Under the pieces are notes generated by a model. It was not told the origin of the DNA. It did no database searches and saw nothing but the letters and a program-made list of their open reading frames with translations. 57,345 nucleotides of DNA from a virus. The first letter of the stretch is position 1. Every line of letters begins with the position of its first letter. Location: positions 1 through 57,345 of the IMG/VR virus record IMGVR_UViG_3300009418_002352; one strand, 5' to 3'. Position numbers and translations under genes: made by a program. Positions 3,149-36,968 of this stretch are shown here, piece after piece.

Positions 3149-3273
3149 AAAGATGTGGTGGTGCTGTTGTGTTCAACAAAAGTTCAAATGGAGTCAATAA
3201 AAGAATTTGTACAAGATGTGGATATGGTTACTCTTCTCGAAAAAGAGCTAATTGTACAAGAATAATAGGATAA
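3133..3273 (+). CDS. Basic Cys-containing microprotein
   Basis: 46 aa from ATG 3133, overlapping the end of the previous gene. Strongly basic, with CTRCGYGYSSRKRANC, the pattern of a small zinc or nucleic-acid-binding knuckle. It ends with TAATG shared with the next start. Confidence 0.55.
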   Translation: MGNRLKRCGGAVVFNKSSNGVNKRICTRCGYGYSSRKRANCTRIIG

Positions 3274-3461: not shown

Positions 3462-3462
3462 T

Positions 3463-3651
3463 ATGGTATCACAAATCAAAGTCGATAAATTAATAGAGAA
3501 TTTCACAAATCCTACAGAAGTAATAATGCCATTAGTTAAATGGTATTCTTTATTTTATGGAGTATCATATATAGAATCAATAAAGTCTATACGTTCTGCT
3601 CTCCAGTCTATGAAAAAAGATGAAGAGTTATTTAATAGAACATATCCATGA
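3463..3651 (+). CDS. Small helical protein, unknown
   Basis: 62 aa starting 1 nt after the previous stop, with AAAGGAAT upstream. Predicted helical, no cysteines. Overlaps the next start by 4 nt. Not recognised. Confidence 0.6.
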   Translation: MVSQIKVDKLIENFTNPTEVIMPLVKWYSLFYGVSYIESIKSIRSALQSMKKDEELFNRTYP

Positions 3652-3893
3652 GAGAGTACTTAATATTTAAGGTAAAGATTGACAATGAAGTTTATATAGA
3701 TGCTTATAGGATAGACGATAAGCCTATAGATTGGATTCCTTTCTGGCAACTAGATAAGTTCGCATATGTATGCTCTCCTTCTAGAATAGAAGCTAAGAGA
3801 GCAGCATGGGTAAATTGGATTTCATCAAGCTTAAATGGATTTGATGAGTGGCACAAAAGAGCAATGAACAAGAAAGAGAGTAACGTAATATAA
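3648..3893 (+). CDS. Small protein, unknown
   Basis: 81 aa, overlapping the previous gene (ATGA). A beta-like N-terminal half (YLIFKVKIDNEVYIDAYRID) is followed by an amphipathic helix with many Trp and Ala residues. No family recognised. Confidence 0.6.
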   Translation: MREYLIFKVKIDNEVYIDAYRIDDKPIDWIPFWQLDKFAYVCSPSRIEAKRAAWVNWISSSLNGFDEWHKRAMNKKESNVI

Positions 3894-3908
3894 ACAAGGG
3901 ATGAAGAT

Positions 3909-4733: not shown

Positions 4734-5017
4734 GTACTGAAGATAATACAGATATAAACAATTCAAAAACTCTAAGAGGAAGGTTTTATGAATTTGCAAT
4801 AGATAAATATGAAGGAAGATATTGGAACTCTAACGGGTATGGATGTGCCGTTGTAGCTTCAATAGGATACGGAGGAGATTGGTCTGCATATATTGGTGGA
4901 TGCGACCCAAAAAGCGAAGAAGTAGGATTAAAATTTATTGCTGAACATGGTTCAAAGCTTACAGAGAAGGATACTAGATATTTCTTTCCAAATCTTGATT
5001 TACCATATAGGAGATAA
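4730..5017 (+). CDS. Hypothetical protein
   Basis: 95 aa, overlapping the end of ruvB by 4 nt (ATGA), so probably co-translated with it. Gly/Tyr-rich middle (SNGYGCAVVASIGYGGDWSAYIGG). No family recognised. Confidence 0.65.
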   Translation: MSTEDNTDINNSKTLRGRFYEFAIDKYEGRYWNSNGYGCAVVASIGYGGDWSAYIGGCDPKSEEVGLKFIAEHGSKLTEKDTRYFFPNLDLPYRR

Positions 5018-5019
5018 CT

Positions 5020-5229
5020 GTGGTTACAAAACAAGAAAGAAACATCAAAAAATTAGTTACTTCTGCTATATCTGAAAAGCTAGAGAAGATAGCACCAATA
5101 TTTTCAGATGGAAATTTATATGAGGTAGAAACTAAACAAGTAGATGAAAATGAAATTCAATTAAAGATCAAAACAGATGAGGGAATAAATTATTATCTAA
5201 GTCTTAAAATCACAGCACCTTGGAGTTGA
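5020..5229 (+). CDS. Small protein, unknown
   Basis: 69 aa from GTG 5020. A basic N-terminal helix is followed by alternating charged beta strands (YEVETKQVDENEIQLKIKTD). Unknown. Confidence 0.55.
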   Translation: MVTKQERNIKKLVTSAISEKLEKIAPIFSDGNLYEVETKQVDENEIQLKIKTDEGINYYLSLKITAPWS

Positions 5230-5230
5230 A

Positions 5231-5419
5231 ATGATACCTCAATCAGCAATTAGTAAAGATGGTACAAGAGTTAGTAGGAGGAAATTAAGGTTATCTTTAG
5301 GTGGAAGGAGAGGAAGAAAAGCAAACACAAAATCTAATATAGTACAACTTAGACCAAAAATTAAGTTGAATAATCTAGTTCAAGAAGCATTAAAATCAGG
5401 ATACATAATAGGAAGTTAA
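5231..5419 (+). CDS. Very basic small protein
   Basis: 62 aa, high in Arg and Lys (RRKLRLSLGGRRGRKANTK), suggesting nucleic-acid binding. No defined fold recognised. The next gene starts directly at its stop. Confidence 0.55.
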   Translation: MIPQSAISKDGTRVSRRKLRLSLGGRRGRKANTKSNIVQLRPKIKLNNLVQEALKSGYIIGS

Positions 5420-5563
5420 ATGGAATGTCCTGAGTGTTATAGAGAGCTAGAACCATTAGACGGATTACAAGACAGACAATTTCAAGAGTGTTCTAGTAAA
5501 CTAAAGTATAGGTTTACTAAACTTGCAATGACTACGAGTAATATTCATGAAAGAGCAACCTAA
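5420..5563 (+). CDS. Zinc-type microprotein
   Basis: 47 aa from ATG 5420, which overlaps the previous stop (TAAATG). Begins MECPEC, with a third Cys later. Overlaps the next gene by 17 nt in another frame. Unknown function. Confidence 0.5.
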   Translation: MECPECYRELEPLDGLQDRQFQECSSKLKYRFTKLAMTTSNIHERAT

Positions 5564-5720
5564 GAAAGGAGATATATTTTATTTCCAAGCAGAGGTAATT
5601 CATGTAAAATACAAGAAAGATTACATAGAGGTTAGACTGAGAGAGAAATACTCTCAGTCTAGTTTTAATCTAAAGTACTATCAACAGGAGCTTACTAATG
5701 ATAACATTAGATCAAATTAG
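5547..5720 (+). CDS. Small beta-rich protein
   Basis: 57 aa from ATG 5547. KKGDIFYFQAEVIHVKYKKDYIEVRL looks like a small beta barrel. The coding sequence contains a perfect 11-bp hairpin (5633-5661), and the end overlaps the next gene. Unknown function. Confidence 0.55.
   Translation: MKEQPKKGDIFYFQAEVIHVKYKKDYIEVRLREKYSQSSFNLKYYQQELTNDNIRSN
5633..5661 (+). terminator. Terminator-like hairpin inside a gene
   Basis: TAGACTGAGAG (5633-5643) and CTCTCAGTCTA (5651-5661) form a perfect 11-bp stem with a 7-nt loop, followed by GTTTT. It lies within the coding sequence of 5547-5720, so it may act as an attenuator or a translation control for the gene at 5698. Confidence 0.45.
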
Positions 5721-5922
5721 AGAACTCTCACATGGATATATAATTCACGATCAAAGGTGTAGGAATTGGAGAGTAAATGGTAAAACTAAATGGTGGAAAC
5801 GTAGTCCAAGTAGAGTATCAGTGCCATTAAAGTATGGACTCTACAATTATTCATACCTTAATAATAGGACACAAGAAGATTTTCATCTAATATCAGAAGA
5901 AAATTGCAAGAAGGAGGTGTAG
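5698..5922 (+). CDS. Small basic protein, unknown
   Basis: 74 aa; AGGAG lies seven nt before ATG 5698. Rich in Arg, Trp and Tyr (CRNWRVNGKTKWWKRSPSRV), and looks like a compact nucleic-acid-binding domain. The 73 nt after it are T-rich and may end this transcript. Confidence 0.6.
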   Translation: MITLDQIRELSHGYIIHDQRCRNWRVNGKTKWWKRSPSRVSVPLKYGLYNYSYLNNRTQEDFHLISEENCKKEV

Positions 5923-10970: not shown

Positions 10971-11564
10971 ATGTCTAGACCACGTAGTAGACCAAAACAA
11001 CCAGAAACTAACGTAGCAACATTAGAAGATAAAGGAGAAGATATGACTACAGAAGCTACAGAGACTAAAGAACAACCAGAGGTAAATACTACATTTCCAC
11101 AAACCATTGGAGATAAAACCTTTCAGACTCCGGGTGAACTTGCAGAGTATGCAGCTAGCCTATCTAAGCTAATGGCTGAGGTAAAGCCAATTGTCAAGGC
11201 TACTAAGCCTGGTCGTCCCACTCCTCAGAAAAAGCTTGTCTCAACAGCTGTTGCTGAATTCCTGAACTCTGAAATGGATGATGTTCTTCGAGAGGCAATT
11301 GGAAAGGTAGAAGGTGACTTCATGCTTAGATTGAATCTAAGCGAAGGCAAGTTCTCTATGCCAGTAGCTGCCCCTCGTGCTGAAGGCTCCGGAGGTAATC
11401 GTGGTGGACGAGCAATCAACGTTGATGAGCAAGATTATCCTTCAGCAAAGAATGCTCGTGACACTCTACATCCTGATATGAAGGAAAAGAGTCAGAACTA
11501 CGATGCCATTGTTAGGTATCTGCAAGCTCAAGGACATAATGTTGTAGTAAGTCCAAAGTCATAA
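10971..11564 (+). CDS. Acidic-linker protein, possibly DNA-associated
   Basis: 197 aa from ATG 10971, which has CGGGAGG upstream; an upstream in-frame GTG at 10941 is within promoter DNA. Basic head (SRPRSRPKQPE), acidic linker, ordered middle, and a Gly/Arg-rich stretch (EGSGGNRGGRAINVDEQ). Its own promoter and downstream terminator make it a single-gene unit, suggesting high expression. Function unknown; a nucleoid- or single-strand-binding role is possible. Confidence 0.65.
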   Translation: MSRPRSRPKQPETNVATLEDKGEDMTTEATETKEQPEVNTTFPQTIGDKTFQTPGELAEYAASLSKLMAEVKPIVKATKPGRPTPQKKLVSTAVAEFLNSEMDDVLREAIGKVEGDFMLRLNLSEGKFSMPVAAPRAEGSGGNRGGRAINVDEQDYPSAKNARDTLHPDMKEKSQNYDAIVRYLQAQGHNVVVSPKS

Positions 11565-11582
11565 CCAAATTTTAGGAGGAAT

Positions 11583-11624
11583 GAGGGTAGGAAGTAGAGT
11601 AATCTGCTTGCCTACCCTCCTTTT
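11583..11624 (+). terminator. Intrinsic terminator
   Basis: GAGGGTAGG (11583-11591) pairs with CCTACCCTC (11611-11619) across a 19-nt loop and is followed by CTTTTAT. It directly precedes the ATG at 11627 and would isolate the 10971 gene or attenuate the oxygenase gene, which lacks its own clear ribosome site. Confidence 0.65.
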
Positions 11625-11626
11625 AT

Positions 11627-12520
11627 ATGTACGAACAACTTTGGAAAGAATTGGAAGATACAAAAGAAATTCCTCATCGCTTTAATCGTTTACATATCAT
11701 GCCTTGGTATTGGATCAAAGCAGAAATATTGAATGGGATGGCACATAATATAATAAATAATCTTTATAAAGGTGATGCTTATTTAATTAAAGATGCTTTT
11801 CCTAGAGAATTTATGACTGACTTGATTAGTGATGTACATGACTATTGTACAATTAATGAAGAGTCATTCCATAAAATGCTGGAAGGTACGCCAGACTTTC
11901 ATAGAAGAATAACACCAGAACTTAGTAAGAAATATAGTATAGGTTCTTGTAAGCATTCATGTTATTTTTATCATTGGAATGAAGATCCATTTAGTATCTT
12001 CCCTGATATTAATGCGCGTTGGCGTGTACTCAAATCTCTAATGGGGTTACAGTACAATGAATACGAGGATAATACACCAAAGGATGGAGTAGTAGACCGT
12101 ATTCAAGTAGTAAGATATCCTCCACAGATAGGCTACCTAGAACCCCATGTAGATGCTCATCAACATCAGCGTCTTATTTTTTCAGGCTATATGTCAAAAA
12201 GAGGTGTTCACTATCAAGATGGAGGATTCTACTTAATTAATGGCTCAGATGAAGTAATAAATATTGAAGATCAAATAGATGTAGGAGATATACTATTTTG
12301 TTATGCAAGTGTTTATCATGGTGTTGCTCCCTGTGATTTAGATGTAGAACCAGATTGGACTAAGAAAGATGGTCGATGGTTCTTATCTATGTATAGTAAT
12401 GCTAGTGATGAGTTAGTAGACCATCAAGGTAATCCTTTCCCACCTAGAGCTACTGCTGCTCCCACTAAGCTATATATCCCAGAGGTATTACCTCATTATG
12501 AGCCAAAGACAACAAAGTAG
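11627..12520 (+). CDS. 2OG-Fe(II) oxygenase
   Basis: 297 aa. The double-stranded beta-helix core shows the iron ligands HVD in LEPHVDAHQH and the distal His in ASVYHGVAP, with the 2-oxoglutarate-binding Arg in GRWFLSMYSN. Such enzymes hydroxylate proteins, nucleotides or sugars using 2-oxoglutarate and O2. Neighbours are sugar-type enzymes, favouring small-molecule or glycan hydroxylation, though phage DNA-base hydroxylation cannot be excluded. The 5' side carries a terminator hairpin. Confidence 0.8.
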   Translation: MYEQLWKELEDTKEIPHRFNRLHIMPWYWIKAEILNGMAHNIINNLYKGDAYLIKDAFPREFMTDLISDVHDYCTINEESFHKMLEGTPDFHRRITPELSKKYSIGSCKHSCYFYHWNEDPFSIFPDINARWRVLKSLMGLQYNEYEDNTPKDGVVDRIQVVRYPPQIGYLEPHVDAHQHQRLIFSGYMSKRGVHYQDGGFYLINGSDEVINIEDQIDVGDILFCYASVYHGVAPCDLDVEPDWTKKDGRWFLSMYSNASDELVDHQGNPFPPRATAAPTKLYIPEVLPHYEPKTTK

Positions 12521-12884
12521 CAGAGGTCAACACAAAAGAGTTAGACAAGGAAGAATGGATCTTGAAGCTACCTTTGCTATACCAGAGGCTAAGAAAGAAA
12601 GAATAAAGGATGGCATATATACTTTATTCGATGATGATTTCCTTCCATCAACCAGGGCAATTAAAGATTGGATACTAGAGTCACATGAAGCATTAGCATC
12701 ATATTGGATGCGCCCATCTAAAAAGGAAGAAGCATTACGCAAGCATGTAGGTTTTATGGATGGCATGAAGTATATGGCAACAATACTTCTATCAGAGTTA
12801 GTAGCAGACCAAGGTAAGTCATTAGAAGAAATGATAATGATAGACTTGGCTCCATTAGTATCAGATAGCATAGAAGGAGAGTAA
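12498..12884 (+). CDS. Hypothetical protein
   Basis: 128 aa, overlapping the oxygenase by 23 nt. Basic N terminus (RQQSSRGQHKRVRQGR) then an all-helical body (KKEEALRKHVGFMDGMKYMATILLSEL). Not recognised. Confidence 0.65.
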   Translation: MSQRQQSSRGQHKRVRQGRMDLEATFAIPEAKKERIKDGIYTLFDDDFLPSTRAIKDWILESHEALASYWMRPSKKEEALRKHVGFMDGMKYMATILLSELVADQGKSLEEMIMIDLAPLVSDSIEGE

Positions 12885-12885
12885 A

Positions 12886-13020
12886 ATGATTTTAATAGAA
12901 ATTAAAGCCATGCAAAGTAATGAAGTAGAATGTTGTTTAGAATGTCTTTATTTTTGCATAGATACTATTCAAATTGATTGTAAGTGTAGATGCCATCCAC
13001 AAAATCAAGATATTGATTAA
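12886..13020 (+). CDS. Cys-rich microprotein
   Basis: 44 aa with AGGAGAG upstream. Eight Cys in ECCLECLYFCIDTIQIDCKC and the following RCH, suitable for one or two metal sites. Unknown function. Confidence 0.55.
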   Translation: MILIEIKAMQSNEVECCLECLYFCIDTIQIDCKCRCHPQNQDID

Positions 13021-13031
13021 GTCTTAAAGTT

Positions 13032-13397
13032 ATGTTAATTGATATAACACAAGATATAAAGGAGGGAAAATATGACCATCCATCTCTATCTTTCTTTTCT
13101 AGAAAGCTATTTGGTAGACGTGTCTTTGCTAAACTCGAAGATTCTGTTCTTTTAGGACATATACAATATACATTTGACAAAGAGAATCAGAATATTATAA
13201 TTTATATCAATTTTGATTTTCGTAAAAACAAGGAACATAGAGAATATGAATCACACAATTTAATCATAAAAGAATATCCATATGAAGATGGAATGGACTT
13301 AGATAAATACCATATCGAAATTAGAAAGGAGATTATTAAAGACAGTCCTCAATCTGAAGGTTTTACTTGGTCATTCTCAGCTAGAGACTTAATATGA
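13032..13397 (+). CDS. Hypothetical protein
   Basis: 121 aa, beta-rich with charged loops (NQNIIIYINFDFRKNKEHRE). The start has no clear ribosome site, but a stop at 13014 fixes the frame. Contains a consensus promoter. Not recognised. Confidence 0.6.
   Translation: MLIDITQDIKEGKYDHPSLSFFSRKLFGRRVFAKLEDSVLLGHIQYTFDKENQNIIIYINFDFRKNKEHREYESHNLIIKEYPYEDGMDLDKYHIEIRKEIIKDSPQSEGFTWSFSARDLI
13174..13201 (+). promoter_or_regulatory. Sigma-70-like promoter inside a gene
   Basis: TTGACA (13174-13179), 16-nt spacer, TATAAT (13196-13201). Both hexamers are perfect. It could drive the cupin/TPP-enzyme operon from 13394. Position within coding DNA lowers certainty. Confidence 0.5.
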
Positions 13398-13840
13398 TAT
13401 ATTATTTTGATAGAAGAGAACAAGACAAGAAAATATTAGAATCTTTACATTTAACTGAAATTGATAAACTTTCCCTCATTAATGATAACCATAACTACTT
13501 AGGTGAGAAGATAGAAAAGCCTTGGGGTTATGAGTACGAAATTTACTCCAGTAATAGTTTATCAATATGGATTTTAAACATTAAAGAAGGTCAATCAACT
13601 TCATTTCATTGCCATCCTAATAAGTTTACGTTATTACATGTTCTAAGTACAGAAACAAGAGTAGTATGTAATGATGCTTTAACTTATCATTTTTTATATA
13701 AAGGAGATCAGGTATTAATAGACAAAGGAGCATTTCATCAAACTACAGCATGTTTGGCTCCAGCAGTGGTTATGGAGATAGAGAGTCCTAATAACAAGAA
13801 CGACTTAATTAGATTCAAGGATAAATATGGGAGAGTCTAA
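13394..13840 (+). CDS. Cupin, sugar-isomerase type
   Basis: 148 aa, overlapping the previous gene by 4 nt. KPWGYEYEIY followed by STSFHCHPNKFTLLHVLS is the metal-binding HxH motif of cupins, with a later His in KGAFHQTT. The KPWG start is typical of phosphomannose-isomerase-like cupins. It heads the run into the TPP enzyme, so a role in nucleotide-sugar chemistry is likely. Substrate unknown. Confidence 0.75.
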   Translation: MIYYFDRREQDKKILESLHLTEIDKLSLINDNHNYLGEKIEKPWGYEYEIYSSNSLSIWILNIKEGQSTSFHCHPNKFTLLHVLSTETRVVCNDALTYHFLYKGDQVLIDKGAFHQTTACLAPAVVMEIESPNNKNDLIRFKDKYGRV

Positions 13841-14084
13841 GATATTATTACAATTAAATTATCAGGCTTTTGATGGAAATATAACCCAAAATGATATTGA
13901 TGGTGCAATAGGAATATGCGATGAAGACTATGGAGGTAATCCTTTAAATCTAAATGAGGATCAACTTAAAGAAATATTTACAACTGATATAGTTATATCA
14001 TGGTTAAAAGAAAATCATTCAGATGAGCAGTGTTGTGCAATTGACGAGATATGTCACATGATTTATAGTGTTCTAAAAGAATAA
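13827..14084 (+). CDS. Small acidic protein, unknown
   Basis: 85 aa, overlapping the cupin by 14 nt. Acidic with Asn/Asp-rich loops and a Cys-Cys pair (DEQCCAIDEICH). Not recognised. Coupled to the next start by TAATG. Confidence 0.6.
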   Translation: MGESKILLQLNYQAFDGNITQNDIDGAIGICDEDYGGNPLNLNEDQLKEIFTTDIVISWLKENHSDEQCCAIDEICHMIYSVLKE

Positions 14085-14206
14085 TGATATTTCTGATATG
14101 TTTAAAGTGGGGAACATTTGCACTCTATGATACATTTGAGTTCATAATGAAAGGTACTAATGAATGGGCACAGAACGCGAGTTGTACTTGGCAATGGTTG
14201 ATTTAA
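14084..14206 (+). CDS. Microprotein, unknown
   Basis: 40 aa from ATG 14084 (TAATG). Begins MIFLICLKWGTFALYDTF, moderately hydrophobic but short for a membrane segment. Unknown. Confidence 0.45.
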   Translation: MIFLICLKWGTFALYDTFEFIMKGTNEWAQNASCTWQWLI

Positions 14207-14219
14207 GAGAGGATATTTA

Positions 14220-16130
14220 ATGAGATTAGCAGACTATGTAATCCAATTCCTTGAAGAGTATGGAGTAGAACATATCTTTACAGTATGTGGAGGAGGCTCA
14301 GTATTTCTAAACGATGCACTTGGACAGTCAAAGAAAATAAAATATGTAGCAATGCACCATGAACAAGCAGCGTCAATGGCAGCAGAAGGATATGCTCGTA
14401 TTAAGAATAGCTTGGGAGTTGTTATGGTTACCTCTGGCCCTGGTGGTACTAACTCTATCACTGGTTGTGCTGGTGCTTGGACTGATAACATCCCGCATCT
14501 CACGATTAGTGGGCAAGTTTTTCTAAATCAGACAATTAACGAGCATCCAGGATTAAGAACATTAGGTATACAAGAAATTAATATCATTGATATAGTCAAA
14601 CCTATTACTAAGTATGCAGTGCAAATTAAAGATCCATTAAAAATAAGATATCATTTAGAGAAAGCTCTCTATTTAGCAACTCATGGAAGAAATGGCCCTG
14701 TATGGCTTGATATTCCTGCTAACATACAGAATGCTAACATCAATCCAGAAGCATTAGATAAATGGTTAGGACTTTTAACATATCCGTCCGATGAAGCGAA
14801 TGTACATAAAGCTCTATCAGAACAAGTATCAAGGGTAGTAGAGCTTTTAAAAACATCTAAACGTCCTATCTTTCATATTGGACAAGGTATACGCTTTGCA
14901 GAGGCAGAGGAATACTTTAAGAATTTAGTTGAATACCATAACGTGCCTTTCTTAACAGCAAGAAATGGTAACGATTTATTTAGCTTTGACCATGTTCTTA
15001 ATATAGGTAGACCAGGTACTTTTGCCCAAAGAGGAGCAAACTTTGCAGTACAAACCTCTGATGTTTATATTGCTATAGGAACACGTCTATCTCTAGCACA
15101 AACTGGGTATAATGCCAAGGACTATGCTCGTAATGCTAAAATAGTTATGGTAGATATTGATCAAGCAGAACTAGACAAAGATACTGTTCCTATTGATATT
15201 AAGATTAATGCTGACGCTAAAGACTTCTTGATAGAATTAGACATACAAATGTGTGAAAAAACAGCAACAGTCTGGAGTTACTATGAGTGGTCAGATTGGA
15301 TTAATCAATGCCAAGAATGGAAACTTAAATATCCAGCAATAACAGATGAACAGAGAGAACAAAAGTCATTTGTCAATACATATCACTTTATAGATGTACT
15401 ATCAGACTTATTAGAGCCAGATGATGTTATAGTAACTGACATGGGATTTGCTTTTCAGTGTACTCATCAAGCCTTTAGAAATAAAGAAGGGCAAAGATTA
15501 ATAACTAATTGTGGCCTTGCTTCTATGGGATGGGGATTACCAGCAGCAATTGGAGCAGCTTTTGCTAGTGAAAAACCTTGTCCACATGATAGTGATGGTG
15601 CAGCCTCTGGAAGTTGTCCTTCTTGTTTAGCTATTAGTAAGGCACCACATAATAAGATTAGAGGTAGAGTTATATGTATAGCAGGTGATGGTGGACTTCA
15701 AATGACGATACAGGAAATGGCTACTATTAATCATCATCAACTACCTATTAAGTTATTCGTATTTAACAATGAAGGTTATACTACACTTAAGCAAACATAT
15801 GAACTTGGATTTGAAGGTAGATTAATGGGTGTTAATGAAAGTTCCGGGCTTTCATTTCCTAGTTTTGGACAAATTGCTTCTGCTTATGGGTTTAAACATC
15901 TGATACTAGGAGACCATATAGGATTAAAAGAAATTACAAAAGCAGTTATTGATGAAAGAGGACCAATATTGTGTCAACTGCTAGTAGACCCTGATCAAAG
16001 ACAGATGCCAATGGCTATTAACAGAAGAAATGAAGATGGCAGCTTTAATCCTACTTCAATAGAAGATGCGTGGCCCTTTCTAGACCCTGAAGAAGTTAAA
16101 CAAAATCTGGAAATAGCGAATGGAATGTAG
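14220..16130 (+). CDS. TPP-dependent enzyme, acetolactate-synthase fold
   Basis: 636 aa with GAGAGGA upstream. All three domains of the family are present: N-terminal pyrimidine-binding domain with catalytic Glu48 (MHHEQAA), a central domain (about 195-335), and a C-terminal domain with the Mg/diphosphate motif GDGG (489-492) and NNEGY (516-520). Relatives in surface-sugar clusters build or break ketose/branched-sugar C-C bonds. An insertion at about 451-478 contains CPH and CPSC, a zinc-knuckle-like loop just before the cofactor motif. Flanking cupin, SDR and methyltransferase genes support sugar biosynthesis rather than amino-acid synthesis. Confidence 0.85.
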   Translation: MRLADYVIQFLEEYGVEHIFTVCGGGSVFLNDALGQSKKIKYVAMHHEQAASMAAEGYARIKNSLGVVMVTSGPGGTNSITGCAGAWTDNIPHLTISGQVFLNQTINEHPGLRTLGIQEINIIDIVKPITKYAVQIKDPLKIRYHLEKALYLATHGRNGPVWLDIPANIQNANINPEALDKWLGLLTYPSDEANVHKALSEQVSRVVELLKTSKRPIFHIGQGIRFAEAEEYFKNLVEYHNVPFLTARNGNDLFSFDHVLNIGRPGTFAQRGANFAVQTSDVYIAIGTRLSLAQTGYNAKDYARNAKIVMVDIDQAELDKDTVPIDIKINADAKDFLIELDIQMCEKTATVWSYYEWSDWINQCQEWKLKYPAITDEQREQKSFVNTYHFIDVLSDLLEPDDVIVTDMGFAFQCTHQAFRNKEGQRLITNCGLASMGWGLPAAIGAAFASEKPCPHDSDGAASGSCPSCLAISKAPHNKIRGRVICIAGDGGLQMTIQEMATINHHQLPIKLFVFNNEGYTTLKQTYELGFEGRLMGVNESSGLSFPSFGQIASAYGFKHLILGDHIGLKEITKAVIDERGPILCQLLVDPDQRQMPMAINRRNEDGSFNPTSIEDAWPFLDPEEVKQNLEIANGM

Positions 16131-16224
16131 TAATTGCTTATCTAACATTAATATAATATATTGCCCGTTAATGAAAGTATGGTTTTGCAAACCTTGTCAT
16201 AAAGCAATCTGCCACTTAATATAA
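16120..16224 (+). CDS. Zinc-type microprotein
   Basis: 34 aa from ATG 16120, overlapping the end of the TPP-enzyme gene. MECSNC, then YCP, then WFCKPCHKAICH: enough Cys/His for a small zinc ribbon. Fills the gap before the PfpI gene. Confidence 0.5.
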   Translation: MECSNCLSNINIIYCPLMKVWFCKPCHKAICHLI

Positions 16225-16237
16225 ATGGAGGTATAAA

Positions 16238-16774
16238 ATGACTAGCGCAATCATAGTAACTGGAGCCCAGGTACAAGATCACGAGTTTATATATCCATAC
16301 TATCGACTACAAGAGGAAGGATATACGGTAGATGTAGCTGTCAGAGGTGGGCAAGAAGTACTTGGATATTATGGAACTAAGATACCTGTGACTTGTGATA
16401 TACCAAATGTTGATGAATTAGATATAAGATCTTATTATGATTTACTTGTCTTGCCTGGTGGAGCTAAGGCAATGGAATATATGAGACAAGACCTTGAAAT
16501 CATAAATTTTATTGCGGAATTCCATGCCCAAGGCGGAATTATAGCAAGTATATGTCATGGGGCACAACTTTTAATCTCTGCTGGACTAGTTAGAAATAAA
16601 GTGATATCAGGTTATTATAGTATAAAAGATGATATTATAAATGCAGGAGGAGTATGGGGTAATGATCCAGTTACTAAGGATGATAGAATAATTACTTCTC
16701 CACATTATAAATACTTAGGTCAGTGGATGAAACAAGTAATTACTGAAATGAATTTTGCTGGAAGAAATTTTTAA
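16238..16774 (+). CDS. DJ-1/PfpI family protein
   Basis: 178 aa with TGGAGG upstream. YDLLVLPGGAKAMEYMRQD and IASICHGAQLLISAG (nucleophile Cys106 in the elbow) are hallmarks of the DJ-1/PfpI glutamine-amidotransferase-like fold. Known members include deglycases, glyoxalases and proteases. It is stop-start coupled to the phosphatase-like gene. It may detoxify reactive sugar intermediates (inference). Confidence 0.82.
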   Translation: MTSAIIVTGAQVQDHEFIYPYYRLQEEGYTVDVAVRGGQEVLGYYGTKIPVTCDIPNVDELDIRSYYDLLVLPGGAKAMEYMRQDLEIINFIAEFHAQGGIIASICHGAQLLISAGLVRNKVISGYYSIKDDIINAGGVWGNDPVTKDDRIITSPHYKYLGQWMKQVITEMNFAGRNF

Positions 16775-17232
16775 TGAAAATTTTATTTGTATGCTATGCT
16801 AACATAGGTAGAAGCCAAGTAGCAGAGGAATACTTTAAACAACTTACTAACCATGTATATGGATTTACAACATGCTCTGCTGGTATAGGAGTTGACCAAC
16901 TAAGTTATCAAAACAATGAAATTAGTTTTAAAGTAGAGGATTCACCTTATCATCGTTCAATAGACTATTGCAAAGAAAAACTTCATATAGATATATCTGA
17001 AAAACTTAAATTGCAATTAAGTATAGATTTATGTAGACATGCTGATAAAGTAATAATGATATGTGAGAAACAACTTTGGCCCAGTTATTTATATGGACAA
17101 GATCATTCTTTTACAGATAAGTTAATCCACTGGAATATACCTGATACACCAGGATTAAGTGATGAAGAGTCTTGGAAGATATGGGATAGTGTAATGATAA
17201 AGACAGAAGAACTAGTACAGGAGATAATATGA
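16774..17232 (+). CDS. Low-molecular-weight phosphatase-like protein
   Basis: 152 aa. FVCYANIGRSQVAEEYF at the N terminus has the CX5R(S) phosphate loop (Cys7, Arg13) of LMW tyrosine phosphatases and arsenate reductases; WNIPDTPG supplies the general-acid Asp. It could remove a phosphate from a sugar phosphate or a protein; a stand-in for the missing heptose-bisphosphate phosphatase is speculative. Confidence 0.78.
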   Translation: MKILFVCYANIGRSQVAEEYFKQLTNHVYGFTTCSAGIGVDQLSYQNNEISFKVEDSPYHRSIDYCKEKLHIDISEKLKLQLSIDLCRHADKVIMICEKQLWPSYLYGQDHSFTDKLIHWNIPDTPGLSDEESWKIWDSVMIKTEELVQEII

Positions 17233-17936
17233 GAGAATTTAATCTACTACAAGACCTCCCACAATCTACAGAACCTCGAATAGTTAGCCCTACTACTAGA
17301 ACAATTAAGAATAGAATTATTGCTTCAGAACGTGAAGGAGAATTCTATGATGGAGATAGAAACAATGGATATGGAGGATATGAGTATGATGGAAGATGGA
17401 ATCCAGTAGCAGGAAGAATCATTAAAGAATATAATATAGAGAATTATGATAATATATTACATGTTGGAAGTGATAAAGGATTTTTGTTGTATGAACTTCA
17501 CAACAGAAATGATACTTTATACTTAAATGGTATAGAAGTATCTGACTATGCTTTTGACCATACTATTGATGAAGCTTATCATGCTATCCGTAAACAAGAT
17601 TCTTTTAGAGAAATCCCATCTATAGATCATGTGTTTGACTTTATAATAGCCATTGGGCCAGTATACTCTCTAAGTCTACCAGATGCTATCAATTTACTAA
17701 AGGAAATACAACGAACAGGAAAGGGTAAGAGCTTTATAACATTAGGTGCATTTGAAACAGAGGAAGAGGAAAGATTATTTAGACAGTGGACTCTATTAGG
17801 TACTACTATACTATCAAAGGATGATTGGAGGGAAGTATTAGAGCATGTAGGTTATACAGGAGACTACTGGTTTAATACAGCTAAAACACTTAATCTTATT
17901 GAAGAGTATGATAGATTGTCAGAACTACATGAATAA
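17229..17936 (+). CDS. SAM-dependent methyltransferase-like protein
   Basis: 235 aa, overlapping the previous gene by 4 nt. NILHVGSDKGFLLYEL matches motif I of class I methyltransferases, though with VGSDKG rather than the common GxGxG. FDFIIAIGPVYSL fits motif IV. N-terminal 70 aa are polar (DGDRNNGYGGYEYDGRWNP). Context suggests methylation of a sugar or glycan. Confidence 0.65.
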   Translation: MREFNLLQDLPQSTEPRIVSPTTRTIKNRIIASEREGEFYDGDRNNGYGGYEYDGRWNPVAGRIIKEYNIENYDNILHVGSDKGFLLYELHNRNDTLYLNGIEVSDYAFDHTIDEAYHAIRKQDSFREIPSIDHVFDFIIAIGPVYSLSLPDAINLLKEIQRTGKGKSFITLGAFETEEEERLFRQWTLLGTTILSKDDWREVLEHVGYTGDYWFNTAKTLNLIEEYDRLSELHE

Positions 17937-18699
17937 TAAGCTAAAAGATAAGAACATCTTAATAACAGGAGCTTCTAGAGGTCTAGGAGCTGTTGCCGCT
18001 GTAGAATTTGCTAAGCAAGGAGCTAAATTAGCATTAATAGCTCGATCTGAAGATAAACTTTATGATGTTAGAATGAAATGTGAAACTCCTTCATTACATA
18101 TAAGTATCTCTGCTGATTTAACAATTGAAGAAGACTTTTTTAGAGCTATGACTGCTGTACAAACATGGTTTGGAGATACAGATGTAGTATTACATTGCTT
18201 AGGAGGTGGACTAGGATACAAAGATTATCTCTTAAATAATATTCAACTAATGGATCTCTTTAACTTAAATATAGGAGTTGCTGCAAGAATTAATAACCAT
18301 ATAGTCCCTGATATGATTGCACAAAAGTCAGGAAATATAGTGCATGTAGGTTCTATAGCTTCAAGTGAAGGAGTAGGTTCTGTAGGATATAATACAGTTA
18401 AATCAGCACTGGCAGGTTATGTTAGAAGTTTAGGAAGAGAGTTAGCACATCACAATGTCATCTGTACCGGAATTCTTCCAGGTGGTTTTATCTCCCCAGG
18501 AAATTCAATGGCTAGACTTGCAGAATCAAATCCAGAAGTATATAATGATTTCATCATCGAAAGGCTTCCAAGGAATAGTATGGGGCAAACCGACGAACTC
18601 CTCCCTATGTTATCCTTACTATGTTCCGAGGATGCATCAATGATGAGTGGATGTATGGTTCCTATAGATGCTGGAGAAGGTAGAGCTTATGCTTTATGA
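17929..18699 (+). CDS. Short-chain dehydrogenase/reductase
   Basis: 256 aa from ATG 17929, at the end of the methyltransferase gene. NAD(P)-binding ITGASRGLGAVAA, catalytic Ser in HVGSIASSEG and YNTVK for the Tyr-x-x-x-Lys pair, and ILPGGFISPG after it. A classical SDR of usual length. Likely reduces a keto-sugar or similar intermediate made by neighbours. Confidence 0.88.
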   Translation: MNNKLKDKNILITGASRGLGAVAAVEFAKQGAKLALIARSEDKLYDVRMKCETPSLHISISADLTIEEDFFRAMTAVQTWFGDTDVVLHCLGGGLGYKDYLLNNIQLMDLFNLNIGVAARINNHIVPDMIAQKSGNIVHVGSIASSEGVGSVGYNTVKSALAGYVRSLGRELAHHNVICTGILPGGFISPGNSMARLAESNPEVYNDFIIERLPRNSMGQTDELLPMLSLLCSEDASMMSGCMVPIDAGEGRAYAL

Positions 18700-18778
18700 T
18701 ATTATACTACATCTCTTTTCTGGAAGTGGAGTAGCACTGTGGGTTATGTATGGAATTGGTTGGATGAAGTTTGTGTGA
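18689..18778 (+). CDS. Single-pass membrane microprotein
   Basis: 29 aa from ATG 18689, with GGAGAAGG upstream, overlapping the SDR end. The sequence is almost entirely hydrophobic (LFSGSGVALWVMYGIGWM), consistent with one transmembrane helix. Function unknown; possible holin-like or regulator peptide. Confidence 0.5.
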   Translation: MLYDIILHLFSGSGVALWVMYGIGWMKFV

Positions 18779-18779
18779 T

Positions 18780-18992
18780 ATGCCATCAATACGTAGTTCT
18801 GAGTTAACTAAAGAACATATCAAGTTACTAACTCTTGTTTCTGAAGGATATGAAGGAAAAGATTTAAGCAGAATATTGTTTTGTCATAACTCAACTGTTA
18901 AACGTCTCATGTCTGACATATTCGAAAAATTAGGAGCAAACAATCGTGCCCACGCTGTAGGGATTGCCTACCGAACTGGCAAACTAACCTAG
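18780..18992 (+). CDS. Solo LuxR-type HTH regulator
   Basis: 70 aa from ATG 18780, 1 nt after the membrane microprotein. LTKEHIKLLTLVSEGYEGKD and the helix STVKRLMSDIFEKLGANNRA match the GerE/LuxR DNA-binding domain, with no receiver or ligand domain. It lies beside the first intergenic repeat, whose palindromes are candidate binding sites. Confidence 0.8.
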   Translation: MPSIRSSELTKEHIKLLTLVSEGYEGKDLSRILFCHNSTVKRLMSDIFEKLGANNRAHAVGIAYRTGKLT

Positions 18993-19115
18993 TAGGTGCC
19001 AAAAAACGTTTTCTAGGGCGATTCTAGGGGGTCAAACCTGGTTTCAGGTATCAACCGTCACCTAACCCAAAATTAGGCCGTAAATCGACTGACATGCAAA
19101 TTCTCTGGGGTATTA
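18993..19115. repeat. Intergenic repeat E1 (AAAACGTTTT family)
   Basis: 123 nt with no gene. Contains the palindrome AAAACGTTTT (19003-19012), two CTAGG motifs and GGGGTCAAACCTGG (19028-19041; the identical 14-mer occurs in E3 at 39346). CCGTCACCTA (19055-19064) also recurs at 300-309. ACATGCA near the uracil-glycosylase start recurs in E2. One of five similar intergenic blocks, richer in G+C than surrounding genes. Confidence 0.65.
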
Positions 19116-19721
19116 ATGGAAGGACAAGAGAGACAGAAATTAATAGATCTTAACTTACTTATTAAGAATTGTACGGATTGCAAACTCTATAAGGTTAGAA
19201 ATAATACTGTTCCAGGCTCTGGCCCTGTACCAGCAGATATAATGTTTATAGGAGAGGGACCAGGTTATAACGAAGATAGAGAAGGAGAACCTTTTAGTGG
19301 CCCATCTGGAAGATTCTTAATGAGATTGCTATCTTCAATAGGACTGACCAGAGCAGAAGTATTTCTAGCAAATATGATTAAATGTAGAGCGCCAGGTGAT
19401 AGAGATCCTCAAGTGGATGAGATATTAGAATGCAGTAAATATTTAGATAGACAAATAGAGTTAGTTGACCCTAAGTTAATCGTCACTCTAGGTAGATACT
19501 CAACATCTAAATTCTTAAAGTTTAGTAATATGACAGACGTTAGAGGTCAAGTGAAAGAGTTAAACGGGAGGTACATTCTTCCTATCATGCATCCTGCTGC
19601 TGCTCTTCGTAATATTAGATTTGAAGAACCAATAAGAGAGGACTTTAAGTTAATACCAAGGATAATGGAACTACCTAAACTAAAAGTAGTACAACCTACA
19701 AAACAAATGGAGCTATTCTAA
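19116..19721 (+). CDS. Family 4 uracil-DNA glycosylase-like protein
   Basis: 201 aa. Removes uracil from DNA in known members. Four cysteines (C19, C22, C90, C106) fit the iron-sulfur cluster; motif 1 is IGEGPGYNEDREGEPF and motif 2 is MHPAAAL. Length is usual. Stop-start coupled to the SIS isomerase. A phage gene may guard against uracil arising from its own dCTP deaminase, or process viral DNA. Confidence 0.87.
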   Translation: MEGQERQKLIDLNLLIKNCTDCKLYKVRNNTVPGSGPVPADIMFIGEGPGYNEDREGEPFSGPSGRFLMRLLSSIGLTRAEVFLANMIKCRAPGDRDPQVDEILECSKYLDRQIELVDPKLIVTLGRYSTSKFLKFSNMTDVRGQVKELNGRYILPIMHPAAALRNIRFEEPIREDFKLIPRIMELPKLKVVQPTKQMELF

Positions 19722-20392
19722 TGACTGAACGTGACCCAAAATATGATTTTATACATCAATACTTAATAGATATTTCTAATCTTGCTTTATCTATTTCTCA
19801 TAATGAATTAGAAATGATGGTAGATAGCTTGGTTAACCTTCGAAACAGAGAAGGAAGATTATTTTGTATAGGAGTAGGAGGTGGAGCAGCTAATGCGTCA
19901 CATGCTGTTAATGACTTTAGAAAGATATGTAATATAGAAGCTTATGCTCCTACAGACAATGTAGCAGAGTTGACTGCTCGTACTAACGATGAAGGATGGG
20001 ATACTATCTTTGAAGAGTGGTTACGTGTTAGTAAGATAAATTGGAAGGATGGAATATTTGTTTTCTCTGTAGGAGGTGGTGATTTACTTAATAAAGTAAG
20101 TGTTCCTATATGTAATGCTTTTAATACTGATAAACACCCTTTGATACTTGGAATTGTAGGACGTGATGGAGGTGAGACAAAACGTCAAGGTGATAGAGTA
20201 ATAGTAATTCCAACATTTAATGAGGATTTAGTAACAGCATATACAGAGTCATTCCAAATCATACTTTTACATGCTATAGTATTTCATCCTAAGTTAATGG
20301 TTAATAAAGGTAAATGGGAGAGTATAGAAAAACAATCGCCTTGTCCATTTTGTGGAAAAGATTTTTGTATGGAGAGACATTATGAACATTAA
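19721..20392 (+). CDS. SIS-domain sugar-phosphate isomerase, GmhA-like
   Basis: 223 aa. FCIGVGGGAANASHAVNDFRK is the phosphate-binding SIS motif of sedoheptulose-7-phosphate isomerases, followed by ELTARTNDEGWDTIFEEWL and a second phosphate loop (VFSVGGGD). The C-terminal 30 aa carry an added knuckle CPFCGKDFCMERH not usual in GmhA. The adjoining transaldolase could supply sedoheptulose-7-phosphate. Confidence 0.82.
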   Translation: MTERDPKYDFIHQYLIDISNLALSISHNELEMMVDSLVNLRNREGRLFCIGVGGGAANASHAVNDFRKICNIEAYAPTDNVAELTARTNDEGWDTIFEEWLRVSKINWKDGIFVFSVGGGDLLNKVSVPICNAFNTDKHPLILGIVGRDGGETKRQGDRVIVIPTFNEDLVTAYTESFQIILLHAIVFHPKLMVNKGKWESIEKQSPCPFCGKDFCMERHYEH

Positions 20393-21083
20393 GATATTTG
20401 CAGATGGTGCTGTACTAGAAGACTTTATAACACTAGACCAAGATGACATTATAAAAGGCTTTACTACTAATCCCTCTTTAATGAGAGCGGCAGGTGTCCC
20501 AAACTATATGGACTTTGCTCGCATATTAACTCGTCTCATCAAGGATAAACCAATCAGTCTTGAAGTATTTGCAAATGATTGGACTGAAATGGAAAGACAA
20601 GCTCGAATACTTGCTCAGTTAGGAGATAATGTATATGTAAAAATACCAATTACTGATACATTTGGAGATTCTACAGAGTATGTAGTCCATAGATTAAGTG
20701 CAGAAGGTATCAAGGTTAACGTAACTGCTATAATGACTACAGACCAAGTTAAAGATATTATAGGATTTACTAATGTAGATGTACCTTGTTACATTTCAGT
20801 CTTTGCAGGACGTATAGCTAATACTGGTATAGACCCTATGCCTATAATGAAGAGATGTGTAGAAATACTAGAGACTAATAACTCTAATGCAGAACTAATA
20901 TGGGCTAGTCCTAGAGAACTTTTAAATATATATCAGGCAGATGAGGTTGGTTGTCACATCATTACAGTTACCAATACTATACTTAGTAACATGTATTTAA
21001 TAGGGAAAGACTTAACGGAATATTCTTTGGAAACTGTTAAAATGTTCTATGACGATGCGGAAGCTTCTAAATATGTGATATAA
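20382..21083 (+). CDS. talC: Transaldolase, TalC/small-subfamily
   Basis: 233 aa from ATG 20382, overlapping the isomerase; GGAGAG precedes it. GFTTNPSLMRAAG, LEVFA, YVKIPIT with the Schiff-base Lys, VNVTAIMT and a YISVFAGRI strand follow the transaldolase barrel. Length matches the small TalC/FSA subfamily carried by many phages. Transfers a dihydroxyacetone unit between sugar phosphates, here likely linked to heptose supply or pentose-phosphate flux. Confidence 0.88.
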   Translation: MNIKIFADGAVLEDFITLDQDDIIKGFTTNPSLMRAAGVPNYMDFARILTRLIKDKPISLEVFANDWTEMERQARILAQLGDNVYVKIPITDTFGDSTEYVVHRLSAEGIKVNVTAIMTTDQVKDIIGFTNVDVPCYISVFAGRIANTGIDPMPIMKRCVEILETNNSNAELIWASPRELLNIYQADEVGCHIITVTNTILSNMYLIGKDLTEYSLETVKMFYDDAEASKYVI

Positions 21084-25123: not shown

Positions 25124-25309
25124 ATGGTCATGGAACTACAAGTATTTTTAAAAGAGTGTCCACATTGCAAGACTGGTGATTTATTCATAGAGGAATCTAT
25201 AAATAATGATATTGGTAGAATGTATTACTTAAAATGTATTCAGTGTGGATGGGATAAGGATATTACAAATCAAGTAAGGGGTTTTGATGCCACACCAAAC
25301 CAAACCTAA
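25124..25309 (+). CDS. Zinc-ribbon protein
   Basis: 61 aa. ECPHCKTGDLFI and YYLKCIQCGWDKDI form a typical four-Cys zinc ribbon of the transcription-factor type. Overlaps the start of thyX. Function unknown. Confidence 0.65.
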   Translation: MVMELQVFLKECPHCKTGDLFIEESINNDIGRMYYLKCIQCGWDKDITNQVRGFDATPNQT

Positions 25310-26141
25310 AGTCTTTTGCATTGGTGAAACTAAGATTAATCGTGATGAGCTAAAGGCTTATCTAGAATCGCTAGGAGTTCCAGAATGGGAGTCTGATGCT
25401 ACAGATGATGTATCAGAACTTATAGAGATAGAAGGTAGAGGATGTTATTTAAGCTTTGGAACTGAAATGAATGATAACATTAATAGAGTACGTAAAACTA
25501 ATGAAGACTACATTGATAACATTATCAAAGTAAAACATGGCTCTGTATTAGAACATGCCTTTCTTAACTTTCAAATACTAGATGCATCCCGTGTCTTTAC
25601 ACATGAAGTAGTTAGGCATTGAGCAGGTACAGCAAAGAGCCAGGAGTCTCTTAGATTTGTTAGAGCTAATGATTTAGGTTATTGGATTCCTAAATGTTTT
25701 CAAGGTGAAATGTTCAGGGAATATGAGGAACTTTTTGAAAGACACTTTATGTTTAGTGAATCAACGTATAAAGAAGCATTAATACTTGCTTCAAAAGAAG
25801 AACTATTTCAATCTGGTAAAGAATGGTTAGGAAAAACTAACGAAGATTATATAGAACACTTTAATACCTTATCTATGTCTCTTAAAAAGAAATATACATC
25901 TGCTGCTCGTAGATTCTTACCAATAGGTATGGCTACTAAGATAGGATATTCATGTAATATAAGAAGTTTACGTACAGTATTAGAACAGCGTACACATCCT
26001 GAGTCAGAAGAAGAAATTAGATTTGTATTTGATAAGATAGGTCAGATAGCTCAACTACGCTGGCCTTTCCTTTTTAAGGACTACACGCCAGAATTAGTAG
26101 ATGGATATCTTTGGTTCAAAACAGAAAATGTGAAGGTTTAG
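25287..26141 (+). pseudogene. thyX: Flavin-dependent thymidylate synthase interrupted by TGA
   Basis: One frame of 284 codons, the usual length for ThyX, which makes dTMP with FAD and folate. The first 111 codons end VFTHEVVRH; codon 112 (25620-25622) is TGA, and the frame resumes AGTAKSQESLRFVRANDL. The family motif is RHR, so the stop replaces its second Arg; CGA to TGA would be one C-to-T change. The 3' part has an internal ATG at 25710 but would lack the motif. Either an inactivating mutation, a sequence error, or readthrough. Start is ATG 25287. Confidence 0.85.
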
Positions 26142-35068: not shown

Positions 35069-35446
35069 ATGAAAGTTATAGACCCAGGACATATGTATAA
35101 GGTAGATATGTTAGATGGTTACTTAAATGACCCATCAAACTTTCTAGTATTTGTAAAACGTAATAACCCACCAGAAAAGTATCCAGGAAATCTTAATTCT
35201 TATCCAGGAACCACCATACAGGAAGTTTTAAGAGCTTTAATAAACAGAATTAAATACCTACAAAATCAGAAAGGATGTGAAGAAGATGTAATATTATTAA
35301 ACATATTCAGAGAGGGTATTCTTCTATTAGAACAAAGGAATGCTCGAGAAAAAGGAAGAGGTTTATTGGTTCCAACTGATATCGTTATAGAAGATATTCC
35401 CACTTGTCCAGAATGCCTACATATAGGTTGTCAAGAGCATGACTAA
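35069..35446 (+). CDS. Hypothetical protein with Cys tail
   Basis: 125 aa from ATG 35069, just past the reductase stop. Mixed fold ending in PTCPECLHIGCQEHD, a metal-knuckle. Overlaps the HldE-like gene by 8 nt. Function unknown. Confidence 0.65.
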   Translation: MKVIDPGHMYKVDMLDGYLNDPSNFLVFVKRNNPPEKYPGNLNSYPGTTIQEVLRALINRIKYLQNQKGCEEDVILLNIFREGILLLEQRNAREKGRGLLVPTDIVIEDIPTCPECLHIGCQEHD

Positions 35447-36968
35447 TGACTACAAACGTAAGATTAAGACAATAGAAGAATTAAAGGAAATAATAGGTGG
35501 ACGACCTAGAGTTAGAAAAGTAATAATGTGTCATGGTACTTTTGACTTAGTACATCCTGGACATATACGTCATTTAATGTATGCTAAGAATAAAGCAGAT
35601 ATATTAATAGTAAGTTTAACTGGTGATGCATTTATTACTAAAGCAGACTATAGACCTTTTGTTCCATCAGAACTTAGAGCAATGAACTTAGCAGCACTTG
35701 AAGTGGTAGACTATGTAATTACAGATGAGTCTCCTACACCTGAAGAAAACATTATTACTCTACAACCAGATTATTTTGCTAAAGGATATGAGTACTCAGA
35801 TGATAATAATGTATTAAATCAAATAGAAAGAGCAGCTATTGAATCATATAATGGTGAGATGATTTATACTCCTGGTGATGTAGTATACTCTTCATCTAAT
35901 ATTATTAATAAAAATCCACCGAACTTGTCAGTTGAAAAGCTACATGTACTAATGGAGTCTAATAGTATAAGTTTTGATGACTTAAAGTATTGTATTAAAG
36001 ATTTTACAGACTTAAGAGTACATGTACTTGGTGATACCATAGTAGATACTTATATTTACTGCAATCTTATATCTAGTGGTATGAGTAAGAATCCTAATAT
36101 AAGTGTTGCACATGAACATGAAGAGAACTTTATTGGTGGTGCAGCAATAGTAGCTAAACATCTCAAAGCTGCTGGTGCAGATGTTAAGTTCTCTACAGTT
36201 ACAGGTGATGATGATTTAGGTTCTTGGGTGACAGGAGAGATATGTGGTAATGGAATAGGTTTTCAATGCTCTATAGATAGAGATAGAGTGACCACACAAA
36301 AACAAGTATATATAACTAATGGGTATAGATTACTTAAAGTAGACAAAGTTGATAATCGTCCTATATCTCAAAGAATCATAGACAGGTTTAGTGAATCTTT
36401 AAGTTGGACAAAACCAGACGCTTATATATTTAGTGACTTTAGACATGGCATATTCAATAGAGATACTATCCCTAAATTAATAGATTGTCTACCAGAGCAT
36501 GGTTTAAGAGTAGCTGACAGTCAAGTAGCTAGTAGATGGGGTAACATTCTAGAATTCAAAGGGTTTGATTTAATTACACCTAATGAAAGAGAAGCACGGT
36601 TTGCATTGGCGGATCAAGATTCAGTAATAAGACCTTTAGCATTAGAATTATTTAAGCAAGCTCAATGTAAAACATTAATACTAAAGCTTGGTAGTAAAGG
36701 AACTTTGACTTATAGATACCCTAATGATGCATCTGGTTCATTCTTTAGTCTAGATACATTTGCTGACAATGTAGTGGATTCTATAGGAGCAGGTGATGCG
36801 TTACTAGCTTATAGTACATTAGCTCTGACATTAAGTCCTAGTGCTCAAGTTATAGCATCTATATTAGGTTCTATGGCTGCTGCTATAGCTTGTGAGACAG
36901 AAGGAAATAATCCAGTTAAGCCAGAAGATGTTATTAAAAAGTTAGAAAGGATTGAACAAAGTTTATGA
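35439..36968 (+). CDS. HldE-like bifunctional nucleotidylyltransferase-kinase
   Basis: 509 aa. Residues about 1-160 are a cytidylyltransferase-type domain (CHGTFDLVHPGHIRHL with HxGH). Residues about 180-509 are a PfkB/ribokinase domain (GGAAIVAKHLKAAGADVKFS and SIGAGDALLAYSTLAL, the GAGDA anion hole). HldE phosphorylates heptose-7-phosphate and transfers AMP to heptose-1-phosphate; here the domain order is reversed relative to E. coli HldE (kinase first). Likely the core of an NDP-heptose route with the SIS isomerase; another phospho-sugar is possible. Confidence 0.85.
   Translation: MTNDYKRKIKTIEELKEIIGGRPRVRKVIMCHGTFDLVHPGHIRHLMYAKNKADILIVSLTGDAFITKADYRPFVPSELRAMNLAALEVVDYVITDESPTPEENIITLQPDYFAKGYEYSDDNNVLNQIERAAIESYNGEMIYTPGDVVYSSSNIINKNPPNLSVEKLHVLMESNSISFDDLKYCIKDFTDLRVHVLGDTIVDTYIYCNLISSGMSKNPNISVAHEHEENFIGGAAIVAKHLKAAGADVKFSTVTGDDDLGSWVTGEICGNGIGFQCSIDRDRVTTQKQVYITNGYRLLKVDKVDNRPISQRIIDRFSESLSWTKPDAYIFSDFRHGIFNRDTIPKLIDCLPEHGLRVADSQVASRWGNILEFKGFDLITPNEREARFALADQDSVIRPLALELFKQAQCKTLILKLGSKGTLTYRYPNDASGSFFSLDTFADNVVDSIGAGDALLAYSTLALTLSPSAQVIASILGSMAAAIACETEGNNPVKPEDVIKKLERIEQSL

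Follow-up and report, generated by a model that had tools for sequence, protein, structure and literature searches.

The 57,345-base virus record IMGVR_UViG_3300009418_002352, analyzed here in its full length and referred to as the window, encodes an isomerase, a transaldolase, a kinase-nucleotidyltransferase fusion, and several predicted sugar-modifying enzymes whose homologues lie together in bacterial genomes. These genes rather likely constitute a captured bacterial pathway that would convert sugar phosphates of the central metabolism into a seven-carbon sugar, activated by a nucleotide and then modified further. The product probably ends up on the phage particle or on the surface of the host. 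The underlying SIS-transaldolase-kinase-nucleotidyltransferase module, which is apparently unreported, is common to diverse bacteria, seems to have been captured several times by unrelated phages, and would be expected to yield a novel heptose isomer or derivative.

Phage origin and arrangement of the sugar genes

Judged by its gene content, the contig is that of an uncultured tailed phage. Replication and nucleotide genes are located on the left of the window and the virion genes, including tape measure, head protease, and tail tube genes, on the right. A class II-type RNR adds to the evidence for a viral contig, and terminase- and portal-like genes occur in a 99.9%-identical record (L148) that extends past the right end of the window. 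No further recognized sugar-pathway gene was found in this extension. A second record spans positions 18417-57238 at 99.96-99.99% identity. Two assemblies thus agree on the linkage of the SIS, transaldolase, HldE-like, and virion genes, which makes a misassembly improbable. The region left of position 18417 is represented by one assembly only, and the genome may be incomplete at its left end.

The sugar genes form two blocks (13394-21083 and 35439-39227), which are 14 kb apart. The genes named in an earlier note on this DNA, among them those for the SIS isomerase, the transaldolase, and the HldE-like protein, were recovered as intact ORFs; the first block also contains a UDG-like gene directly upstream of the SIS gene.

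13394-13840, plus strand: cupin, weakly similar to the C-terminus of mannose-6-phosphate isomerase
14220-16130, plus strand: ThDP (TPP) enzyme of the acetolactate-synthase superfamily; homologue in the bacterial cluster L049, 40% identity
16238-16774, plus strand: DJ-1/PfpI protein
16774-17232, plus strand: LMW phosphatase/ArsC-like protein with CX5RS loop; candidate for the missing phosphatase step
17229-17936, plus strand: methyltransferase-like protein; same bacterial cluster, 43% identity to the L049 copy
17899-18699, plus strand: SDR oxidoreductase; 52% identity with its counterpart within the L049 cluster
19721-20392, plus strand: SIS-domain isomerase with GmhA-like fold, non-orthologous subfamily (H61, D65, E176, H184)
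20382-21083, plus strand: transaldolase (TIGR02134 family) with transaldolase-type active site; start overlaps the SIS end
35439-36968, plus strand: HldE-like fusion in reversed order, nucleotidyltransferase (HGTFDLVHPGH) followed by PfkB kinase (GAGD)
37093-37983, plus strand: Gfo/Idh/MocA oxidoreductase; also follows HldE in the bacterial clusters
37986-39227, plus strand: NDP-sugar dehydrogenase-like (UGD-like) protein without the catalytic cysteine

Chance is an implausible source of this gene set, because the same set is collinear in bacteria.

Transaldolase and SIS isomerase

The transaldolase scored 309.9 bits against the NCBIfam model TIGR02134, above the cut-off of 281.95. Its active-site residues are E61, K87, N113, S139, F141, and R178, and the residues E96, N154, S176, F178, and R228 of TalB are kept in all 89 transaldolase sequences compared. 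Supply of sedoheptulose 7-phosphate is therefore the natural reading of this gene. An identity as FSA-type aldolase was considered and rejected based on the active-site residues; the reference sequences for TalB and fructose-6-phosphate aldolase, and the residue roles which we take to set the two apart, are those generally assumed. In one viral heptose cluster (L153:7014-8273) the transaldolase ORF is in frame with an upstream GIY-YIG-like endonuclease sequence, representing either a fusion or a homing-endonuclease insertion.

The SIS gene, encoding 223 aa, begins at the final base of the UDG-like gene (TAATG), and its end overlaps the transaldolase start by 11 nt. The top PDB folds matching its AlphaFold model (pLDDT 90.5) were GmhA or its relative DiaA, with the best matches, each a GmhA structure, reaching E ~1e-9 and TM ~0.74 by target length. 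The score against the NCBIfam gmhA model TIGR00441 was 28.9 bits, below the cut-off of 209.45. The zinc ligands of GmhA (H64/E68/Q175/H183 in Burkholderia pseudomallei numbering) are reported as invariant among orthologues, and the B. pseudomallei variant Q175E bound substrate and was inactive (PMC5705639). At the equivalent positions, the SIS protein possesses H61/D65/E176/H184, which are invariant in 44 of 44 family members compared and differ from GmhA at two of the four positions (E to D and Q to E). The register of E176 and H184, which lie in the C-terminal helix region, was taken from HMMER alignments to 1tk9 and 5ltz, and is preferred because of this pairing and because it preserves a distance of eight residues between the Q/E position and the invariant H184. 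A MAFFT register equating GmhA Q172 with SIS Q179 was rejected, as HMMER pairs that position with E176. Moreover, at least 9 of 20 bacterial SIS carriers contain a separate, much stronger GmhA-type match elsewhere (~180-200 versus ~50 bits). Based on these comparisons, the SIS protein resembles GmhA in fold and place and is not a GmhA orthologue. The altered metal site, the separate GmhA of the carriers, and the missing catalytic cysteine of the UGD-like protein (see below) together suggest that the heptose product probably differs from ordinary core heptose. The SIS C-terminus (20345-20392) carries an extra Cys/His-rich tail, SPCPFCGKDFCMERHYEH, which is absent from relatives and reaches into the stretch shared with the start of the transaldolase gene.

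HldE-like fusion and putative sugar-modifying enzymes

By family match, the HldE-like fusion holds both the kinase and the nucleotidyltransferase domain of HldE, with rfaE domain II preceding domain I, opposite to the order in Escherichia coli. Both rfaE scores were under the curated cut-offs (129 versus 345 bits and 90 versus 181.5 bits). The solved structure nearest to the kinase half is a D-beta-D-heptose 7-phosphate kinase (4e84, E 1e-15), and the nucleotidyltransferase half is nearest to cytidylyltransferase/HldC-type proteins (relatives of 5x9q/5x3d).

The UGD-like protein matched TIGR03026 with 211.3 bits, exceeding the cut-off of 189.8. Its GG.C..KD motif reads GLGISGGHLERD, in which the catalytic Cys is replaced by His; bacterial copies have Asn at this position, and all relatives read have Asn, His, Thr, or Ser. 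Due to this replacement, the protein is unlikely to oxidize its substrate in two steps to a uronic acid, and could possibly catalyze a one-step alcohol oxidation instead.

The family assignments of the cupin, the TPP enzyme, the SDR, the NDP-sugar-dehydrogenase-like protein, the Gfo/Idh protein, and the LMW phosphatase were confirmed. The proposed methyltransferase gene is present, but its product matches no family directly and takes its name only from the L049 homologue. That homologue lies beside the L049 SDR, which was the only match at E ≤ 1e-40 to the phage SDR among 337 alphaproteobacterial genomes. No counterparts of the cupin, DJ-1, LMW phosphatase, and 11627 genes were present in the bacterial HldE-cluster loci compared. 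The last of these (11627-12520) encodes a 297-aa protein with an HxD...H pattern suggestive of a 2OG-oxygenase; as searches against Pfam and PDB returned zero matches, its previous label as an oxygenase is unproven.

A conserved bacterial cluster with homologues of the phage genes

Relatives of the SIS protein were detected in bacterial genomes at 43-56% identity. In Alphaproteobacteria GWC2_42_16 (L008), the gene order is SIS, HAD phosphatase, transaldolase, two NAD-epimerases, HldE-like fusion, Gfo/Idh, UGD-like, RmlD-like, and methyltransferase. Identities to the phage proteins are 56% for the fusion, which has the same reversed domain order, 45% for Gfo/Idh, and 35% each for the UGD-like protein and the methyltransferase. 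This collinear cluster occurs in alphaproteobacteria and Acidobacteriota. Matches to the HldE fusion were found in 24 of 337 alphaproteobacteria (with 23 strong matches) and in 3 of 247 Acidobacteriota, nearly always within this cluster, and the 25 HldE-centered loci contained the transaldolase (20 loci), SIS (17), Gfo (23), and UGD (21) genes despite contig ends. Since L049 (genome G137) additionally contains the SDR, the closer methyltransferase, and the TPP enzyme, with the SDR and methyltransferase genes paired, homologues of eight phage genes, drawn from both blocks, share one bacterial neighborhood. Across the cluster loci (L008, L042-L066), the direct homologues of the phage genes show about 30-61% identity and the HldE-Gfo-UGD order is the same, whereas the phage lacks the HAD and both epimerase genes and has its genes split into two blocks. 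We found no published function for this cluster in the literature.

For each of the 11 bacterial SIS loci L008-L018, the contig or genome also encodes the HldE fusion or else a GHMP kinase, indicating that these bacteria retain a sugar-phosphate kinase but exchange the protein that provides it. TPP chemistry recurs at heptose clusters via different enzymes, as L064 carries an E1-alpha-like TPP gene (4704-5801) and L153 paired E1-alpha/E1-beta-like TPP genes (11512-13816).

Missing steps

The HAD proteins of the bacterial cluster match GmhB models, below the cut-off. A profile built from 83 cluster HADs detected no GmhB-like HAD in the window and 9 kb beyond (best E 1.1; 5e-88 for the SIS control), which bears out the absence of GmhB observed earlier. 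Searches of the same region for a GHMP kinase, the glycosyltransferase of the viral cassettes (see below), and an epimerase yielded nothing significant, and both epimerases of the bacterial cluster were undetected. With the GmhB-type phosphatase and both epimerases undetected, the earlier description of the route as complete does not hold. The phosphatase step could be filled by host GmhB-type or other HAD phosphatases; E. coli gmhB mutants keep partial heptose synthesis. We know of no precedent for an LMW phosphatase at this step.

Related cassettes in other viruses

From an IMG/VR profile scan, 80 of 210 SIS relatives were kept. In counts that include near-duplicates and truncated contigs, the transaldolase was present in 76 and the HAD in 71 of 81 viral SIS loci, and a total of 86 viral loci contained SIS (84), transaldolase (80), HAD (73), and GHMP kinase (66) genes. 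The commonest arrangement, nucleotidyltransferase-SIS-HAD-transaldolase-glycosyltransferase-GHMP kinase in ~44 viral loci, adjoins a T4-type RNase H gene. The best matches of the cassette proteins, all below curated cut-offs, were GmhB for the HAD, HddA for the GHMP kinase, and rfaE domain II for the nucleotidyltransferase. Three T4-like uncultivated viruses (L085, L127, L136) carry a compact, apparently complete NDP-heptose operon together with a glycosyltransferase gene; in L127, an S-adenosylmethionine decarboxylase gene is located just upstream. Like the window, these viruses encode SIS and transaldolase homologues, but all heptose steps are present there, a GHMP kinase takes the place of PfkB, the nucleotidyltransferase is a separate protein, HAD and glycosyltransferase genes are included, and the SIS proteins form their own clade.

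In the SIS tree, the window phage is placed among the bacterial cluster copies, apart from the T4-like virus clade. In the HldE tree it groups with Acidobacteriota copies (support 100/99), and at least four changes of the virus label are required. Based on these two trees, capture of the module by phages more than once is most likely. Five other viral contigs contain the full HldE fusion at 50-55% identity, accompanied by transaldolase, UGD-like, or epimerase genes.

Among isolated phages, Caulobacter phage Cr30 and Synechococcus phage SynMITS9220M01 carry genes annotated as phosphoheptose isomerase and D,D-heptose 7-phosphate kinase, and phage heptose genes are thus not a new kind of finding. 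The window SIS had zero tblastn matches in the isolated-phage genome collection, and the HldE fusion had no full-length relative there. To date, we found no phage SIS-transaldolase-heptose operon described in the literature. The isomerase, C1 kinase, and nucleotidyltransferase steps are common to the phage and the bacterial ADP-/GDP-heptose pathways (GmhA, HldE or HddA, GmhB, HddC), for which a transaldolase can supply the precursor. In contrast to these pathways, the phage has a SIS protein with an altered metal site and a score below the GmhA cut-off, reversed HldE domains, and no GmhB, and it encodes the additional Gfo/Idh, Cys-less UGD-like, SDR, TPP, and methyltransferase proteins.

Proposed pathway and alternative explanations

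From these genes, folds, and active-site residues we infer the following reactions, products, and recipient. The transaldolase would act on fructose 6-phosphate and erythrose 4-phosphate to give sedoheptulose 7-phosphate, which the SIS protein would convert via the altered H/D/E/H metal site to an aldoheptose 7-phosphate whose configuration possibly differs from the common D-glycero-D-manno one. C1 would be phosphorylated by the PfkB half of the fusion, the 7-phosphate would be removed by a host phosphatase or possibly by the phage LMW phosphatase, and the nucleotidyltransferase half would yield an NDP-heptose, with the NTP not being predictable. The Gfo/Idh, SDR, cysteine-less UGD-like, methyltransferase, and TPP proteins would elaborate the sugar, which GT-A-like proteins of the virion block may then transfer onto head or tail proteins.

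The heptose route put forward earlier is supported by the conservation of one cluster, the transaldolase signature, the GmhA fold, and the heptose-kinase-like structure, but not as a route to a standard heptose, as the active sites of the SIS and UGD-like proteins depart from the known enzymes. A check of whether the enzymes group with unrelated pathways left this reading standing. It is quite unlikely that the enzymes use another sugar phosphate (C5, C6, or C8) and produce a non-heptose nucleotide sugar: such a use would fit the SIS and HldE scores below the cut-offs of all curated heptose models, the metal site altered throughout the SIS family, and the separate GmhA of the carrier genomes, whereas the transaldolase signature, the GmhA fold, and the heptose-7-phosphate-kinase-like, GmhB-like, and HldC-like partners point to C7. 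We regard as very unlikely that the transaldolase and SIS protein, unrelated to HldE, serve the nucleotide and pentose-phosphate supply for phage DNA synthesis in the manner of the TalC common in cyanophages. The phage does encode an RNR, a thyX reading frame, and dCTP-deaminase-like and other nucleotide genes, but its transaldolase is a TIGR02134 member that shares only ~28-31% identity with cyanophage TalC, and the transaldolase gene is linked to SIS in the viral loci (76 of 81) and to HldE in bacteria. Equally improbable is a decaying, incomplete acquisition that has lost its pathway function. The absent phosphatase and epimerases, the dispersal of the genes, and an in-frame stop in thyX of the same genome would agree with decay; against it, all sugar ORFs are intact with conserved catalytic residues, and their freedom from stops despite 40-60% divergence from the bacterial copies indicates selection.

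Possible destination of the sugar

No Pfam-recognized glycosyltransferase was present among the window proteins scanned, and the only glycosyltransferase-like genes found are located inside the virion block:

48085-48984, minus strand: putative GT-A glycosyltransferase, virion gene block, DND motif
48971-49954, minus strand: putative GT-A glycosyltransferase paralogue, virion gene block, DTD motif
L148:7408-8289, beyond the window: third putative GT-A paralogue, between portal and head protease

The first two lie between the tail tube and tape measure genes, and D141 and D143 of the DxD motif are invariant in the paralogues. The best match to Anp1 had E 0.0063, below the curated cut-off, and COLGALT1 was also matched; Foldseek retrieved COLGALT1 (4.6e-5) and the PBCV-1 capsid glycosyltransferase with a poor model (pLDDT 46.8). 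As these individually weak matches agree, the 48085 and 48971 paralogues are likely GT-A proteins. Their placement suggests virion proteins as acceptors and supports, as a hypothesis, the capsid or tail glycans considered in the earlier note. Transfer onto head or tail proteins would be the likeliest use of the sugar, a proposal that we make tentatively and with less certainty than the pathway itself. Mycobacteriophage glycosyltransferases are likewise believed to glycosylate virion proteins (Freeman et al. 2023, as cited in PMC12619734; phage Maravista, PMC11256854). In comparison to the mycobacteriophages, the GT-A assignment in the window is weak, and a nucleotide-sugar pathway is encoded as well.

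A serious rival, if a somewhat unlikely one, is that the same pathway delivers the sugar to the host surface (LPS or capsule), where it would alter the receptor and block superinfection. In agreement with this explanation, the authors of a pelagimyophage study assign rfaE and UDP-glucose 6-dehydrogenase genes to O-chain modification (PMC7029224), the T4-like viral cassettes contain a glycosyltransferase, and in L011 the bacterial cluster is surrounded by ORFs that by eye resemble polysaccharide genes (ABC transporter, ligase, aminotransferases). The confinement of glycosyltransferase-like genes to the virion block speaks against it. We consider unlikely, and less probable than this rival, the most far-reaching version of the virion proposal, in which a non-GmhA isomerase and a cysteine-less dehydrogenase would make an undescribed modified NDP-heptose that three virion-operon glycosyltransferases attach to head and tail proteins, as a self-contained programme from a captured bacterial cluster. 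The gene sets suggest that phages pay for an entire route from central metabolism to glycan, instead of drawing on the nucleotide sugars of the host; should the sugar indeed reach the virion, this would provide a reason why such costly gene sets are kept.

Further observations on the phage genome

The thyX-like frame (25284-26141) is interrupted by an in-frame TGA (25620-25622). This codon immediately follows VVRH and takes the position at which the RHR motif should have its conserved Arg. The stop is also present in the second assembly and indicates either a pseudogene, recoding, or a split gene. In L148, the terminase large subunit (2097-4912) is apparently split into ATPase and nuclease ORFs separated by ~1 kb with three small ORFs, and the adjoining 153-aa protein (918-1379) ends in a RuvC and zinc-ribbon part that resembles TnpB (CxxC, DVNAARN).
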